Positions 6,117 to 35,552 of a stretch of 50,962 nt of DNA are shown here, in pieces; position 1 is the stretch's first letter, and every line of letters begins with the position of its first letter. The translations under genes were made by a program, and so were the position numbers. The DNA lies in contig CABYAF010000005.1 in assembly GCA_902516925.1 (NCBI GenBank), forward strand, positions 1-50,962, read 5' to 3'. The stretch comes from an uncultured Bacteroidota bacterium. GTDB lineage: Bacteria; Bacteroidota; Bacteroidia; Flavobacteriales; Flavobacteriaceae. The notes beneath the pieces are model-generated. The model was not told the origin of the DNA. It made no database searches and saw only the letters and a program-made list of their open reading frames with translations.

Positions 6117-6703
6117 TAAACAAATCAGAGTATAAAATTATTTTGGGCTCAGGATCATCAAGAAGAAGAGAGCTACTGGACATGACTGGTATAGATTTTA
6201 CAGTGAAATCCATTCCAGTTGATGAAAGTTTTCCTGATTCTCTCAAAGGAACAGAAATTTCAGAACATATAGTTAAAAATAAATCTGAAGCTTTTAATGA
6301 GCTAATCAAAAAAAATGAAATTATAATTACTGCCGATACCCTTGTTTGGTTTGAAGATGAATGCTTGGGTAAACCTAAAGATAAAGAAGAAGCTAGATCT
6401 ATGCTTAAATTATTTACCGGTAAATCTCACGATGTAATTACTTCAGTCGGATTCTTGACTGCTGGTATGTTTAAAATTTTAACAGAGAGCACAACTGTTA
6501 CCTACAAACATCTTACTGAAAAAGAAATCGATTATTATGTTGAGACTGTCAATCCAGTTGATAAAGCAGGAAGTTATGGTATTCAAGACTGGATAGGTAT
6601 GATTGGAGTTGAGTATGTAAATGGAAGCTATACAAGTGTTCTTGGCCTACCTGTACCTCAAGTCACAAATGAAATAATTAAAATTATCAATGAAAATCTT
6701 TAA
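6107..6703 (+). CDS. maf: Maf-like nucleoside triphosphate pyrophosphatase
   Basis: A 198-residue Maf/Ham1-fold protein. The N-terminal IILGSGSSRRRELLDM is the family's phosphate-binding signature, followed by VDESFPD, an ADTLV motif with a catalytic Asp, GKPKDKEEA, and the late substrate-recognition segment DKAGSYGIQ. Maf proteins hydrolyse non-canonical or modified dTTP/UTP/CTP to the monophosphate, cleansing the nucleotide pool, and affect septation in some bacteria. The SRR and KAGSYGIQ arrangement fits the YhdE (dTTP/UTP) subgroup. It starts inside kdsC and ends inside the following SRPBCC gene, with 10- and 14-base overlaps. Length is normal for the family. Confidence 0.92.
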   Translation: MDLVNKSEYKIILGSGSSRRRELLDMTGIDFTVKSIPVDESFPDSLKGTEISEHIVKNKSEAFNELIKKNEIIITADTLVWFEDECLGKPKDKEEARSMLKLFTGKSHDVITSVGFLTAGMFKILTESTTVTYKHLTEKEIDYYVETVNPVDKAGSYGIQDWIGMIGVEYVNGSYTSVLGLPVPQVTNEIIKIINENL

Positions 6704-7154
6704 GTTAAAATATTCACAAAAGCTACCCATTAGTTTGAATGAAGCATGGGATTTTTTATCATCGCCCAGCAATTTGGAATTAATAACACCAAAGTCAATG
6801 GATTTCAATATAACTGATTATGATAAAAAGAAAGCCTATCCAGGCCAAATAATTCAGTATACTGTTAAACCATTACTTGGTATAAAGATTAATTGGGTTA
6901 CTGAAATTACTCAAGTTCAAGACAAAGAGTTTTTCGTTGATGAACAAAGATTTGGTCCTTACAGTTTCTGGCATCATAAACATTTCATTAAAGAAATTGA
7001 AAATGGTGTTTTAATGGAAGATGTGATTCACTACAAAATACCCTTAGGACCAATTGGGGTTCTACTTAATTTCCTTTTTATTAATTCTAAACTTAAAAGT
7101 ATTTTTAAATACAGAAAACAAGAATTAATAAAAACTTTTGGAGATTATAAATAA
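6690..7154 (+). CDS. SRPBCC (START-like) ligand-binding protein of the photolyase cassette
   Basis: A 154-residue cytosolic protein with the SRPBCC/polyketide-cyclase-like pattern: an N-terminal strand, then LNEAWDFLSSPSNLELITPKSMDF, a string of beta strands, and a long C-terminal helix (about 125-150). SRPBCC domains form a deep hydrophobic cavity for small ligands. No catalytic residue can be named. Similar proteins often sit next to an SDR and cryptochrome/photolyase genes in aquatic bacteria, as here. It overlaps maf by 14 bases and abuts the SDR start with no gap. A cofactor- or pigment-binding role in the cassette is inference from context only. Confidence 0.75.
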   Translation: MKIFKLKYSQKLPISLNEAWDFLSSPSNLELITPKSMDFNITDYDKKKAYPGQIIQYTVKPLLGIKINWVTEITQVQDKEFFVDEQRFGPYSFWHHKHFIKEIENGVLMEDVIHYKIPLGPIGVLLNFLFINSKLKSIFKYRKQELIKTFGDYK

Positions 7155-7847
7155 ATGAAAAATATACTATTAATAGGTGGTTCAACTGGGATTGGTTATG
7201 AACTCTCAAAAAAACTCGTAGATAATAATAACATATTTGTATCTACCAGAAATACAGAAATTTTTAACGGTACTGAAATCAAAACTCAAGAATTAAACTT
7301 AGATGATGACTTTGATTTAGATTGGTTACCAGATCAAATAGATGGTTTTATTTACTTACCTGGTACAATAAACCTTAGACCATTCAAGGGTATTAAGCCG
7401 TCTACTTTTATAGATGATTTTAATATTAACGTAATGGGTTGCGTCAAAATACTTCAAAAAGTTTTACCTAGACTCCAATCCTCAGATAATGCTAGCATTG
7501 TAATGTTTAGTACAGTGGCTGTAAAATTAGGAATGCCTTTTCATAGTTCAGTTGCTGCATCCAAGGGTGCAATTGAGGGTTTGACAAGATCACTTGCAGC
7601 TGAATTTGCACCTAAAATAAGAGTAAATGCTATTGCCCCCTCTATACTTGATACACCCTTGGCTGAAAAGTTTCTTAATTCTGAGTCAAAAATGGATAAT
7701 GCTAAGAACAGGCATCCATTGAAGGAAATTGGTTCTGCCGATGATATATCTGAAATGGTTAAATTTTTATTAAGTGGAAAAAGTAAGTGGATGACTGGTC
7801 AAATAATTCCATTTGACGGTGGGATTAGCTCACTCAAGACTAATTAA
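7155..7847 (+). CDS. Short-chain dehydrogenase/reductase lacking the catalytic Tyr
   Basis: A 230-residue Rossmann protein of the SDR family. The nucleotide-binding GGSTGIG is at 8-14, a probable catalytic Ser region at VMFSTVAV (Ser119), and the active-site helix at 131-143. In ordinary SDRs the helix carries Tyr-x-x-x-Lys. Here the lysine is present (Lys137) but the tyrosine position is Val133, in HSSVAASKGAIEG. The rest of the helix and the IRVNAIAPSILDTPL segment are well conserved, so this is not a decayed gene. It may bind NAD(P) without standard oxidoreductase chemistry or use another acid/base. Its stop overlaps the DUF2256 ATG (TAATG), tying it to the photolyase cassette. Exact substrate unknown. 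Confidence 0.85.
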   Translation: MKNILLIGGSTGIGYELSKKLVDNNNIFVSTRNTEIFNGTEIKTQELNLDDDFDLDWLPDQIDGFIYLPGTINLRPFKGIKPSTFIDDFNINVMGCVKILQKVLPRLQSSDNASIVMFSTVAVKLGMPFHSSVAASKGAIEGLTRSLAAEFAPKIRVNAIAPSILDTPLAEKFLNSESKMDNAKNRHPLKEIGSADDISEMVKFLLSGKSKWMTGQIIPFDGGISSLKTN

Positions 7848-7984
7848 TGAGAGGAGTTAAAAAACAAAATCTTCCAACAAAAATATGTGTCATATGTGGT
7901 CTAGAATTTTCATGGAGAAGAAAGTGGAAAAAAAATTGGGATGAGATAAAGTATTGTAGCAAATTATGCAGAAGCAAAAGATAA
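7847..7984 (+). CDS. DUF2256 mini zinc-ribbon protein (45 aa)
   Basis: A 45-codon gene squeezed between the SDR and the Cry-DASH gene. The ATG shares its A with the SDR stop (TAATG), and the end overlaps the next gene by 19 bases. The product begins MRGVKKQNLPTKIC. It has two cysteine pairs, Cys14/Cys17 (ICVIC) and Cys37/Cys41 (YCSKLC), separated by a Trp- and Lys-rich stretch, WRRKWKKNWDE. This is the DUF2256 signature: a single small treble-clef or ribbon-like zinc site in a very basic protein. DUF2256 genes are often found beside cryptochrome/photolyase genes, but no function is established to my knowledge. RNA or DNA binding is plausible from the charge, as inference. Confidence 0.88.
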   Translation: MRGVKKQNLPTKICVICGLEFSWRRKWKKNWDEIKYCSKLCRSKR

Positions 7985-9258
7985 ATAGTTTAGTATGGTT
8001 CCGAAATAATTTGAGGATTGAAGACAATATTTCATTAAGTAAAGCAATCAATAACTCAGATAACATTTTTGGTTTCATTAATATTGACCCAAAAAATTTT
8101 CTTTTAACCAAGTATGGATTTAAAAAAACAGAAAAATATAGAGCAAAATTTCTACTTGAAACGATATCTGACTTAAAGAGTCAACTTGATACTCTAAACA
8201 TCTCACTAATTATAACTCATAAAGATTTTGACAAATCAATAAAAGAAATAATTAATAACTATGAAATTACAAACATTTACACACAGACAGAGTGGACTAG
8301 AGATGAGTTAAAAGAGGAGTCTTTTATACCAGATGAAATTAATTTGATAAAAGATTTTGATCAATTTTTATTCTCACCAAATGATGTAAAAGGGTTATAC
8401 GATAATATACCTAGAGGGTTCTCCAATTTTAGAAAAAAATGTGAAAAGTATTTATCTGTCAATGATATCTTGTCGATACCCAATTCTCTAAATCCTGATA
8501 ATAAAATTTTATTTGACTACTCTATCCCGACATTGTCTGATCTTGGATTTGAAGATTTTGATGTACATAAAGACTCAGTCTTTAGATTTAAGGGTGGAGA
8601 AACAAATGCTAAGGATAGAATTAAAAATTATTTTTTTGATACAAGAAATGTATCTAGGTATAAATTAACTCGTAATGGACTAATTGGTGAGGATTATAGC
8701 TCAAAATTTTCTCCCTGGCTAGCAAATGGGTCAGTATCTGTCAAATATATTTTCAAATTATTAAAAGAATACGAAACAAAAGTTGAAAAGAATGATTCTA
8801 CATATTGGTTATACTTTGAACTAATCTGGAGAGACTTTTTTAAGTATGTCTCAATGCAACATAAAGATAAATTCTTTAATAAAGATGGAATATATGGTGA
8901 AGATAAAGAATGGTCAGATGATAAAGATGTATTATTAAAATGGATAAATGGTAAGACAGATGAGCCATTTATAAATGCAAATATGATAGAACTCTCAAAT
9001 ACCGGATTTATGTCTAATAGAGGAAGGCAGAATGTAGCAAACTATTTAACTAAAGAATTAAAGATTGACTGGAGAATAGGTGCTGAGTATTTTGAATCTA
9101 TGCTAATAGATTATGATGTTCACAGTAATTATGGAAATTGGCTTTACAATGCAGGTATAGGAAACGACTCAATGCCATTTAGGAAGTTTAATCCAAAACT
9201 ACAATCCGAAAGATATGATCCAGATAAGTCATATGAAAAAACTTGGTTGGATGGTTAA
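7966..9258 (+). CDS. Cryptochrome DASH / DNA photolyase
   Basis: A 430-residue member of the cryptochrome/photolyase family. The N-terminal antenna domain opens with LVWFRNNLRIEDN (9-21). The C-terminal FAD-binding domain includes SKFSPWLANGSVS, WLYFELIWRDFFKY, and the late helix NYGNWLYNAGIGNDS (about 388-402). These and TEWTRDELKEE match the DASH subgroup, which repairs cyclobutane pyrimidine dimers in single-stranded or looped DNA using blue light and reduced FAD. The C-terminus ends soon after RYDPDKSYEKTWL, without the long extension of plant cryptochromes. It overlaps DUF2256 by 19 bases and the following photolyase by 8, so all three are probably co-translated. Confidence 0.9.
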   Translation: MQKQKINSLVWFRNNLRIEDNISLSKAINNSDNIFGFINIDPKNFLLTKYGFKKTEKYRAKFLLETISDLKSQLDTLNISLIITHKDFDKSIKEIINNYEITNIYTQTEWTRDELKEESFIPDEINLIKDFDQFLFSPNDVKGLYDNIPRGFSNFRKKCEKYLSVNDILSIPNSLNPDNKILFDYSIPTLSDLGFEDFDVHKDSVFRFKGGETNAKDRIKNYFFDTRNVSRYKLTRNGLIGEDYSSKFSPWLANGSVSVKYIFKLLKEYETKVEKNDSTYWLYFELIWRDFFKYVSMQHKDKFFNKDGIYGEDKEWSDDKDVLLKWINGKTDEPFINANMIELSNTGFMSNRGRQNVANYLTKELKIDWRIGAEYFESMLIDYDVHSNYGNWLYNAGIGNDSMPFRKFNPKLQSERYDPDKSYEKTWLDG

Positions 9259-10741
9259 TAAATGTTGTCTTGTTTTTCCAAATCAGCTTTTCAAGGAAAG
9301 TAACCTTTTAAAAAATGAAAATCATATTTTTTTAGTAGAGGAATATTTATTTTTTAAACAATATAAATTTCATAAACAAAAAATCTCTTTTCATCGTGCA
9401 ACCATGAAATTCTATGAAGATTATTTAAAAAATAAAAATCTTAGAGTTTCCTACATTAATTCATATGATGAACAATCAAATATTTTAAGCTTGTTAGACT
9501 ACATTAAATCTCAAGGATTCAACCTTGTTGAAATGTACGACCCTGTTGATTATCTTTTGAACAAAAGGATTAAGAAAAAATGTAATGAACATAACATAAA
9601 ACTATTTATTCATGAATCACCTCATTTTTTGAATACTAATGAAGATCTTAAAGATTTTTTTAAGGAATCTAAGAAAAAGTTTTTTCAAACTTCTTTTTAT
9701 AAAACAGAAAGAAAAAAAAGAAATATTCTTATAGATATAGATGGAAGACCAGAGGGTGGTGAGTGGACATATGATATACTAAACAGGAAGAAATATCCCA
9801 AAGGCGAAATTCCTCCTAAAGTTGATTTTCCTAAGGATAATGATTATACCACTAATTCTCAATCATATACAGAAAAGAATTTTAAAGATAATTATGGTGA
9901 GATTGGTATGTTTAAGTACCCAGTTACATTTGATGAATCTGAAAAATGGTTCAATGATTTTTTAGAAAATAGATTCCTAATGTTTGGTGACTATGAAGAT
10001 GCAATTGTTAAAGATGAAGTCACTTTAAATCATAGTTTATTAAGTCCATTGATGAATGTTGGACTTCTAAATCCTAGATATGTTATATCTAAATCAATTG
10101 ATTTTGCAAAAAAGAATAATATTCCTATTAATTCAACTGAAGGTTTTATAAGACAAGTAATAGGTTGGAGAGAATTTATTAGAGGTATTTATACAGTTAA
10201 AGGGAGCTATGAAAGGACACTAAATTATTGGGGATTTAAAAGAAAGATTCCAAAATCCTTCTACACAGGGGAAACAGGTATAGAACCAGTTGATGATTCA
10301 ATTAAAAAAGTTCTCAAAACAGGATATCTTCACCATATTGAAAGACTAATGATACTTGGAAACTTTATGTTATTATGTGAATTTGATCCAGATGAAGTTT
10401 ACAAGTGGTTTATGGAATTATTTATTGATTCTTATGACTGGGTAATGGTCCCTAACATCTATGGGATGAGTCAATTTGCTGATGGAGGCTTGATGTCTAC
10501 AAAACCATACATTAGTAGTAGTAATTATGTTTATAAAATGAGTGATTTTAAAAAAGGTGAATGGGATTCTACTTGGGATGGTTTATTTTGGAGATTTATG
10601 AACAAACAAAGGGACTTTTTTGTAAAAAACCCTAGACTTAGAATGCTTATAAACACATTTGATAAAATGAGTTCTGAAAAAAGGGAACTACATGTTTTAA
10701 ATGCTGAAAAGTTTTTAGAAAAAATTGATAATGAAAAGTAA
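9251..10741 (+). CDS. FeS-BCP-type (PhrB/CryPro) photolyase lacking the iron-sulfur cysteines
   Basis: A 496-residue protein of the prokaryotic (6-4) photolyase family, related to PhrB/CryB (COG3046). Family landmarks include LVFPNQLF near the start, HRATMKFY, GRPEGGEWTYD, GFIRQVIGWREFIRG, a TGETG segment at 339-343, and HHIERLMILGNFMLL followed by GMSQFADGGLMSTKPY. The ATG at 9251 is chosen because it gives the family N-terminus; the open frame extends 36 bases further upstream. The oddity is cysteine content: only Cys5, Cys6, Cys111 and Cys376 occur. The TGET-x-x-C region and the loop after MSD (from residue 430), which hold the four 4Fe-4S ligands in relatives, have none, and that loop is shorter. 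Repair activity is probable but not proven. Confidence 0.87.
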   Translation: MVNKCCLVFPNQLFKESNLLKNENHIFLVEEYLFFKQYKFHKQKISFHRATMKFYEDYLKNKNLRVSYINSYDEQSNILSLLDYIKSQGFNLVEMYDPVDYLLNKRIKKKCNEHNIKLFIHESPHFLNTNEDLKDFFKESKKKFFQTSFYKTERKKRNILIDIDGRPEGGEWTYDILNRKKYPKGEIPPKVDFPKDNDYTTNSQSYTEKNFKDNYGEIGMFKYPVTFDESEKWFNDFLENRFLMFGDYEDAIVKDEVTLNHSLLSPLMNVGLLNPRYVISKSIDFAKKNNIPINSTEGFIRQVIGWREFIRGIYTVKGSYERTLNYWGFKRKIPKSFYTGETGIEPVDDSIKKVLKTGYLHHIERLMILGNFMLLCEFDPDEVYKWFMELFIDSYDWVMVPNIYGMSQFADGGLMSTKPYISSSNYVYKMSDFKKGEWDSTWDGLFWRFMNKQRDFFVKNPRLRMLINTFDKMSSEKRELHVLNAEKFLEKIDNEK

Positions 10742-11006
10742 GAACTTAGAAGAAATAGACAGGATCATTGAAATGGCTTGGGAGGATAGGACCCCATTTG
10801 AGGCAATATTTCTTCAGTTTGATATAAATGAGAAGGAATTAAAAGCGATAATGAGAAATAACCTGAAGAAAAGTAGTTTTAAACTTTGGAGAGAAAGAGT
10901 TAGCGGAAGAAAAACAAAGCATTCAAAACTAAGAGAGAATAGTATAGATAGATTTAAGTGTAAACTACAAAGAACTATTTCAAACAATAAAATCTCGAAA
11001 AGATAA
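10731..11006 (+). CDS. TIGR03643/DUF2805 family protein
   Basis: A small basic protein of 91 residues starting at the ATG at 10731; the frame is open from a TTG at 10725. It has the helical pattern LEEIDRIIEMAWEDRTPFEAIFLQFDINEKELKAIMRNNLKKSSFKLWR, with a likely helix-turn-helix-like core, then RVSGRKTKHSKL and a very basic tail. This matches the TIGR03643 (DUF2805) family, another small unknown that follows cryptochrome/photolyase genes in many aquatic bacteria. It overlaps the photolyase by 11 bases and ends the plus-strand cassette, two bases from the convergent murA stop. DNA binding is suggested by charge and shape only. Confidence 0.82.
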   Translation: MKSKNLEEIDRIIEMAWEDRTPFEAIFLQFDINEKELKAIMRNNLKKSSFKLWRERVSGRKTKHSKLRENSIDRFKCKLQRTISNNKISKR

Positions 11007-30448: not shown

Positions 30449-30461
30449 GTTTTATAAGATA

Positions 30462-30568
30462 AAGGCGGCGACATACTCTCCCACAAAATTGCAGTACCAT
30501 CTGCGCTGATAGGCTTAACTTCTCTGTTCGGGATGGGAAGAGGTGAGCCCTATCGCTATAACCACCTT
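30462..30568 (-). rRNA. rrf: 5S ribosomal RNA
   Basis: On the minus strand the sequence begins GGTGGTTATAGCGATAGGG and ends with GTCGCCGCC, so the two ends pair as helix I. The interior has the canonical CACCTCTTCCCATCCCGAACAG and GAAGTTAAGC segments. The ends are estimated from helix I, give or take a few bases. It is the last gene of the rRNA operon. Confidence 0.95.
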
Positions 30569-30635
30569 AAAATTTTAATAAGGTCATATAACATTTGAAA
30601 ATATCGAAGTTAACAATCAAGAAAGTGTGTTACAA

Positions 30636-33455
<2,820 letters not shown>

Positions 33456-33622
33456 TGTAACTTATTAAAAAGTTACAAGTAACTCTTAACTCTTTCTTAA
33501 ATTGTAAAATTATTTGGTATTTAATAATAACAGTATTAAATACCTATTTACGTTAACTCTGTACAATCTCAAAAAACTATTAAATTGGATAACTGAATAA
33601 TTTATGAATTGTACTTGATATT

Positions 33623-33642
33623 TTCAATATGTCAATGAACTT
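33623..33642 (-). promoter_or_regulatory. BoxA-like antitermination element in the 16S-23S spacer
   Basis: On the minus strand this reads AAGTTCATTGACATATTGAA, between tRNA-Ala and 23S. A near copy lies before 16S (35553-35573). Bacteroidetes rRNA leaders and spacers carry similar GTTCnTTGA-type boxA sequences read by NusB and NusG, and nusB is encoded at 39320. The role is inferred from position, duplication and resemblance. Confidence 0.55.
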
Positions 33643-33669
33643 ATACTCTTAATTTGCATTAAGAAGTTG

Positions 33670-33743
33670 TGGAGAATATCGGAGTCGAACCGATGACCTC
33701 CTGCGTGCAAGGCAGGCGCTCTAGCCAGCTGAGCTAATCCCCC
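33670..33743 (-). tRNA. tRNA-Ala (TGC)
   Basis: On the minus strand: acceptor GGGGGAT pairs with ATTCTCC, D arm GCTC...GAGC, anticodon stem-loop CCTGC-CTTGCAC-GCAGG carrying TGC, T arm TCGG-TTCGACT-CCGA. Discriminator A, CCA not encoded. It is the usual second tRNA of the Bacteroidetes rRNA spacer. Confidence 0.96.
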
Positions 33744-33765
33744 TTTTTTCCGAATTGGAATTTAG

Positions 33766-33839
33766 TAGTCTCGGGCAGACTCGAACTGCCGACCTCTACA
33801 TTATCAGTGTAGCGCTCTAACCGGCTGAGCTACGAGACT
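33766..33839 (-). tRNA. tRNA-Ile (GAT)
   Basis: On the minus strand: acceptor AGTCTCG pairs with CGAGACT, D arm GCTC...GAGC, anticodon stem-loop CTACA-CTGATAA-TGTAG carrying GAT, T arm GGCAG-TTCGAGT-CTGCC. Discriminator A, CCA not encoded. It lies between 16S and tRNA-Ala, the standard order in bacterial rRNA spacers. Confidence 0.96.
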
Positions 33840-33928
33840 CTATTCGAGATTCTATTTTAAGGGTTATTATAAAAAATGACAGCAAGCAAACGCAAAGGAT
33901 TGATGCTATAGTCAGGTCGTCTTTCTCT

Positions 33929-35458
<1,530 letters not shown>

Positions 35459-35552
35459 GTAGTATTTTTAATAAATTATACGACTCTGAATTGACTATGT
35501 TTCAAAATGTTTGGTTTGCTAGTTTGTATCTTAATTGATACGCGCTGTCATT

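Follow-up and report, generated by a model that had tools for sequence, protein, structure and literature searches.

The question raised by this locus is what a photolyase of the PhrB/CryPro family does when the cysteines that would hold its iron-sulfur cluster are missing. The window, the whole 50,962-nucleotide stretch analysed here (contig CABYAF010000005.1), belongs to an uncultured marine bacterium of the Flavobacteriaceae. The gene in question lies on the plus strand at positions 9251..10741, starting with ATG at 9251 and encoding 496 amino acids plus a stop codon. Its product carries the Pfam domains DPRP (175.1 bits) and FAD_binding_7 (28.3 bits), both above curated cut-offs. The product is probably a functional prokaryotic 6-4 photolyase that does without the cluster and corresponds to the published subgroup M. 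In this reading, the predicted fold, the residues and the gene context come from the present analysis, and the chemistry is borrowed by analogy from PhrB and its Caulobacter counterpart.

The initial annotation rightly described the product as a PhrB/CryPro relative without cluster ligands; DPRP and flavin adenine dinucleotide (FAD) binding domains are combined with zero ligand Cys. Cysteines occur exactly at residues 5, 6, 111 and 376, and both segments quoted from the putative ligand regions, TGETGIEPVD and MSDFKKGEWDSTWDG, are present. The second region is Cys-free and shorter, as had been claimed; the deletion relative to PhrB-type proteins comprises 10 residues. In the alignment with PhrB-type proteins, PhrB Cys350 corresponds to Pro346 (codon at 10286..10288, plus strand), Cys438 and Cys441 fall in the 10-residue deletion and Cys454 corresponds to Ser440. 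The ligand columns of the window protein thus read P346, gap, gap, S440 with no conserved Cys, and all four of its cysteines lie outside these positions. The loop-length comparison places the shortened loop, where PhrB has Cys438, Cys441 and Cys454, at residues 431-447 (10541..10591, plus strand). None of the four Cys of the FeS-BCP cluster-bearing subtype (PhrB 350, 438, 441 and 454) is present, and the label "FeS-BCP-type" is unsuitable because Chen 2022 (PMC9178010) keeps that name for the cluster-bearing subtype. A frameshift, a misassembly or a pseudogene could in principle produce such a protein, the window's genome being a draft that is 63% complete. However, the cluster ligands are absent in all 19 gene-holding genomes of the genus (25 searched), and the same pattern recurs in the 18 others as well as in named metagenome-assembled genome and isolate records. 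The ratio of nonsynonymous to synonymous substitution rates against the 91%-identical homologue L002 is 0.07-0.09 (two methods, one pair), which renders an artefact or pseudogene unlikely; together with the recurrence, it leaves this explanation scarcely credible.

The loss of ligands is all-or-none among homologues. Ligand Cys number 0 in 155 and 4 in 39 of 194 distinct sequences (202 rows minus 8 identical copies), and no sequence has 1-3. This set is non-random, since 80 loci were those that best matched a cluster-free profile and the cluster-bearing loci were chosen from score lists, and the 155 include L147, which stops before the loop and cannot be judged at the last three positions. The loop from M430 to W447 comprises 16 residues in 146/155 cluster-free and 26 residues in 37/39 cluster-bearing proteins. 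L148 (40% identity) was considered as an intermediate form and ruled out, having no ligand Cys. Retention of a metal cluster by means of different ligands appears very improbable. Four Cys do remain in the window protein, a single loop Cys occurs in 15/155 cluster-free proteins, always directly after Trp438, and a Cys lies within 342-350 in 5/155, neither amounting to a ligand set. Against this, the loop region of the cluster-free proteins never holds more than a single Cys, and Cys5, Cys6 and Cys111 are N-terminal and variable even within the genus. Four common ligands are therefore absent, since Cys376 alone is widely kept (143/155).

The cluster site of these proteins carries a set of residues of its own. 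Pro346, Trp438 (10562..10564, plus strand) and Trp442 (10574..10576, plus strand) are jointly present in 149/155 cluster-free homologues. Individually, each of the three is found in 150/155; the column of Pro346 is Cys in 39/39 cluster-bearing proteins, and that of Trp442 is Phe in 17/19 cluster-bearing proteins of one alignment. All three positions are altered together in L148, L222, L223 and L225, to Leu, Met or Phe at 346, Gly438 and Phe442, and the remaining exceptions are L121, with Ala346, and the truncated L147. An earlier alignment had forced 38 added rows into fixed columns; a second, in which all 194 sequences were aligned freely, left the counts for Cys and for Pro-Trp-Trp as they were and altered a single loop length in either kind. 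In an AlphaFold2 model built from 43 aligned proteins, with a mean predicted local distance difference test score of 87.8 and block means of 52-59 at residues 391-420, a helix extends over 437-452 (block confidence 91-95 over 431-450) with Trp438 at its start. We infer that Pro346, Trp438 and Trp442 pack at the place of the PhrB cluster. No paper title or abstract opening on this set was found, and its absence in print is not claimed. The four proteins altered at all three positions form a small cluster-free side group without the Trp pair, from four genomes coded g53, and judged from their sequences would represent an alternative solution to the lack of a cluster. Further g53 genomes, typed by score, contain either the common cluster-free kind (G598, G691) or the cluster-bearing one (G679).

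A maximum-likelihood tree of 60 proteins, built without the loop and position 350 and thus excluding the cluster columns, separates 19 cluster-bearing from 41 cluster-free proteins by one branch with 100/100 support. It is unrooted and requires a single change of state between the two kinds; flagged rows were the long branches L163, L152 and L148 and 15 rows of unusual composition. The window protein belongs to a large cluster-free branch, a point for which the initial annotation had proposed a tree. As this branch is already described (PMC4619345, PMC9178010 and PMC9426592), the novelty implied for the protein fails. The 80 cluster-free loci from genome contigs, a sample of the top-scoring 80 among at least 577 relatives that is biased towards the window's kin, comprise 76 from Bacteroidota, 2 from Ignavibacteriota, 1 from Balneolota and 1 unassigned. 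Iron-poor ocean water was considered as a general cause of cluster loss and is unsupported, the branch including Dyadobacter, Mucilaginibacter and some Chitinophagaceae, which are soil or freshwater genera.

Structure prediction, also suggested by the initial annotation, gave a PhrB-type fold. The top 11 Foldseek matches of the window model are prokaryotic 6-4 photolyase/CryB structures with template modelling (TM) scores of 0.87-0.91 on the query, including 0.91 to 4dja (PhrB), and the 12th match is a class II enzyme with a TM score of 0.58. The nearest solved relatives by sequence are likewise the PhrB, CryB, Vibrio, Caulobacter and Synechococcus enzymes. The window protein shares this fold with the cluster-bearing FeS-BCP/CryPro structures (PhrB 4dja, CryB 3zxs, Vc 8a1h/7ykn, Cc 9hnk and SePhrB 8ijy) and keeps the equivalents of PhrB His366, Asp179, Asp254, Tyr424, Tyr430 and Trp390. 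It differs from them in lacking the cluster Cys, in a loop shorter by 10 residues, in the Pro-Trp-Trp set and in Met399 (Glu403 in PhrB), at 27-30% identity in structural alignments. A sequence search for close structures returned 8 distinct Protein Data Bank (PDB) sequences with no cluster-free member among them; 7 were aligned and carry all four Cys, and the eighth, 9q8f, is titled as a Caulobacter enzyme mutant. Entry 8ijy was considered as a cluster-free structure and rejected, its aligned sequence having the Cys and Foldseek naming it as the Synechococcus elongatus enzyme.

All of the whole-group 6-4 photolyase residues (PhrB His366, Tyr424, Tyr430, Asp179 and Asp254) are present in the window protein. 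Their equivalents His362, Asp175, Asp250, Tyr420 and Tyr426 are kept in 155/155 cluster-free and 39/39 cluster-bearing homologues. His361 and His362 (10331..10336, plus strand) correspond to PhrB His365 and His366, with His361 kept in 141/155 cluster-free proteins. Asp175 (9773..9775) and Asp250 (9998..10000), both on the plus strand, correspond to the Mg-site residues PhrB Asp179 and Asp254 and are Asp in 194/194. The 2019 work of Ma et al. reportedly, by its title, also concerns a link to the Mg site. His366 is essential for repair by PhrB according to mutant data (PMC4619345), and the equivalents of the two Asp are predicted Mg sites of the Caulobacter enzyme (JACS 2025, PMC12082625). A light sensor of the cryptochrome type without repair activity would find a precedent in the relative CryB of Rhodobacter, to which a signalling role is ascribed (PMC9178010). 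Such a role is improbable for the window protein, where all five tested repair/Mg2+ residues are kept, the gene sits behind another photolyase-family gene and it is missing from exactly the 6 genus genomes without any FAD_binding_7 match.

Around the flavin, the cluster-free proteins depart from PhrB. The PhrB Trp342 column is Tyr338 in the window protein (Tyr in 105/155, Trp in 46/155), Trp390 is kept as Trp386 (147/155), and the Tyr391 column is Phe387, as in 155/155 cluster-free homologues. PhrB Glu403, beside flavin N5, is replaced by Met399 (10445..10447, plus strand; model confidence is low here), and this Met is found in 155/155 cluster-free proteins; cluster-bearing proteins have Glu in 27/39 and Met in 2/39. 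SePhrB also has Met at the Glu403 position (PMC9178010); entry 8ijy, titled with covalently linked FAD, is this enzyme. The pocket for the antenna 6,7-dimethyl-8-ribityllumazine (DMRL), taking as reference Leu8, Gly9, Asp10, Glu33, Glu37, His43, Lys47, Ile51, Met55 and Arg108 of subgroups A and G, is mostly altered: only E30, K44 and M52 are kept, and F9, P10, N11, F34, F40, H48 and L102 differ. For the 8-hydroxy-5-deazaflavin antenna, FO synthase cofG was over cut-off in 0/25 genus genomes, many of which are incomplete.

The genomic position of the gene links the two kinds. Directly upstream is a 430-residue DASH-family cryptochrome/photolyase (7966..9258, plus strand; TIGR02765 at 453.8 bits, cut-off 317.05), a member of the same superfamily and on the same strand, belonging to a different family, whose open reading frame (ORF) overlaps the start of the photolyase coding sequence. 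Downstream, the ORF of a DUF2805/TIGR03643 protein (10725..11006, plus strand) overlaps its end. This DASH, photolyase, DUF2805 arrangement was found in 19/19 distinct genus loci tested; neighbour counts here and below refer to loci with enough flanking sequence, with DASH defined by at least 40% identity to the window's DASH. A cluster-bearing member can hold the same slot. Among 21 distinct cluster-bearing loci, DASH is directly upstream in 11 and accompanied by DUF2805 in 2. These 11 are all of the window's family, with a DASH 45-51% identical to the window's; the 20 cluster-bearing loci fetched with flanks comprise 19 of that family and 1 of its order. The cluster-bearing locus L197 and the cluster-free locus L027 have in common DASH, DUF2805 and a short-chain dehydrogenase/reductase (SDR) at near-equal spacing.

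Either kind was found in 132/395 genomes of a phylum sample and 159/396 of a class sample, and the cluster-free kind in 40 and 67 of these, respectively; in both samples type was set by score, the Cys being read in fetched loci only, and at most three candidates per genome were scored. A further search, again with type set by score, took the class-sample genomes of the cluster-free kind other than the window's own, 66 in number, and scored all candidates; both kinds occurred together in 0/66, the cluster-bearing query giving one match in each. Two genomes, G581 and G627, gave two matches in the class-sample search and one in the 66-genome search. Since the two kinds were not found together in these genomes and the slot can be held by either, they are most simply read as performing one and the same function.

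Several side observations concern the photolyase genes of this genus. The DPRP gene and FAD_binding_7 are both absent in exactly six of the 25 genomes (G001, G002, G007, G011, G015 and G024), reflecting either loss of the whole set in certain lineages or the incompleteness of the drafts (55-82% complete), and four of the six have a rhodopsin match, one of them a short piece. The window's genome encodes a third photolyase-family protein, L171 (G000:C18, 679-2163, plus strand), which reaches no NCBIfam cut-off and has low-level similarity to DASH, class I and insect 6-4 proteins. Ahead of the photolyase pair lie a 154-residue protein that matches neither Pfam nor NCBIfam and an oxidoreductase of the SDR type (window 6690-7847), a pair also found ahead of the photolyases in L058-L060, L086 and L089. 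Elsewhere, the window contains a complete ribosomal RNA operon at 30460-35460 on the minus strand (16S, tRNA-Ile, tRNA-Ala, 23S, 5S).

A cluster-free 6-4 photolyase would work as follows. Blue light would excite reduced FAD, which would pass an electron to the bound 6-4 photoproduct, whose binding would be aided by Tyr420, Tyr426 and Mg2+ at Asp175/Asp250, with His362 taking part in protonation of the lesion. Photoreduction of the flavin might run through the altered aromatic chain Tyr338, Trp386, Phe387 and Phe391. In PhrB, ligand-Cys mutants were insoluble or unexpressed, the cluster thus not being removable (PMC4619345); its stabilising job may here fall to the shortened loop together with Pro346-Trp438-Trp442.

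Certain observations weigh against this reading. Repair activity is a prediction, and so is the filling of the cluster cavity by the Trp pair. His361 is Asn in 14/155 cluster-free proteins and Trp386 is replaced by Phe in 8/155. Most DMRL-pocket residues are changed. Outside the genus, DASH lies directly upstream in only 17 of 109 distinct cluster-free loci, DUF2805 directly downstream in 11 and both neighbours in 5. Assignment to subgroup M, which includes PromaPL of Prochlorococcus, would be by matching features. Finally, picocyanobacterial cluster-free forms were proposed to repair cyclobutane pyrimidine dimers (CPDs) in mBio 2022 (PMC9426592).

The last point, extended to the window protein, would mean that the cluster-free type repairs CPDs and not 6-4 photoproducts, in line with the proposal for the majority of picocyanobacterial Phr2, and this is unlikely, if less so than a sensor role. 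In mBio 2022, CPD repair is deduced from the missing cluster (PMC9426592). In the genus, class II photolyase was over cut-off in 0/25 genomes, and L171 reaches only 148 bits where the class I equivalog demands 506. The window's genome thus showed no recognisable standard photolyase for CPDs in double-stranded DNA; only DASH and L171 (class uncertain) accompany the gene. CPD repair keeps some weight because the genus has no class II enzyme and the window's genome no class I enzyme over cut-off. However, the cluster-free type can take the slot of the cluster-bearing gene and was not found alongside it in the genomes searched. The His366 equivalent, the sharing of the slot and the mutual exclusion make the evidence lean towards 6-4 over CPD repair.

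Family members that lack the ligands are described in several papers. In Graf 2015, 7% of 464 family members are without the Cys, and such homologues have no Tyr at 437 and 443 (PMC4619345); the alignment obtained here disagrees at column 437 (PhrB numbering), where Tyr is found in 123/155 cluster-free proteins and the window protein has Phe433. Subgroup M of Chen 2022 comprises 20/110 sequences and is the sole subgroup without the four conserved Cys; Met lies near flavin N5 in 74% of Chl, HC, Ac and M members pooled, and no intact W-W-Y-Y chain is reported in non-A/B/G subgroups including M (PMC9178010). The window protein lacks the four Cys and has both Met near N5 (M399) and a broken chain (Y338, W386, F387, F391), the latter two features being unspecific, as other non-A/B/G subgroups are alike. 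Most picocyanobacterial Phr2 are without ligands, and PromaPL is given as a (6-4) photolyase without the cluster (PMC9426592, citing Ma 2019). Several orthologues miss the Cys, and what the cluster does in the prokaryotic 6-4 photolyases is still termed "elusive" (JACS 2025, PMC12082625). Searches for the PromaPL sequence confirmed 0/5 pattern stretches in viral contigs and gave no match in phages. None of the best 80 of 577 relatives in genome contigs is titled cyanobacterial, and the cyanobacterial records among 60 of 87 plasmid records, at ~29-35% identity, did not yield PromaPL. The likeness to subgroup M, seen in matching features and not in a joint tree with PromaPL, comprises absence of the four Cys, Met by flavin N5, an incomplete PhrB-type chain, an unconserved DMRL pocket and occurrence in several lineages; no difference is established, subgroup M being known here without direct PromaPL alignment.

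The window protein is thus ordinary for its group, a new sequence of a known cluster-free type. Three aspects were not met in the passages covered of the family literature: a distribution of all four Cys or none, the Pro-Trp-Trp set, and the slot shared within a family. The two kinds may even be interchangeable, an idea to which we give somewhat less than even weight: one would have replaced the other in the same operon slot within a family, and the fixed Pro346-Trp438-Trp442 plug would make the cluster a removable support of the fold, not part of the repair chemistry, with Met399 possibly linking to the flavin. The suggestion in the initial annotation that a clusterless version would be a natural test of what the cluster does is sound, but it is not particular to the window protein. 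A structure from the cluster-free branch would be informative, as no member of it is among the close PDB sequences. With 155 distinct sequences, no intermediates seen and both forms found in one kind of slot, this branch provides matched pairs from which the properties that depend on the cluster could be told.

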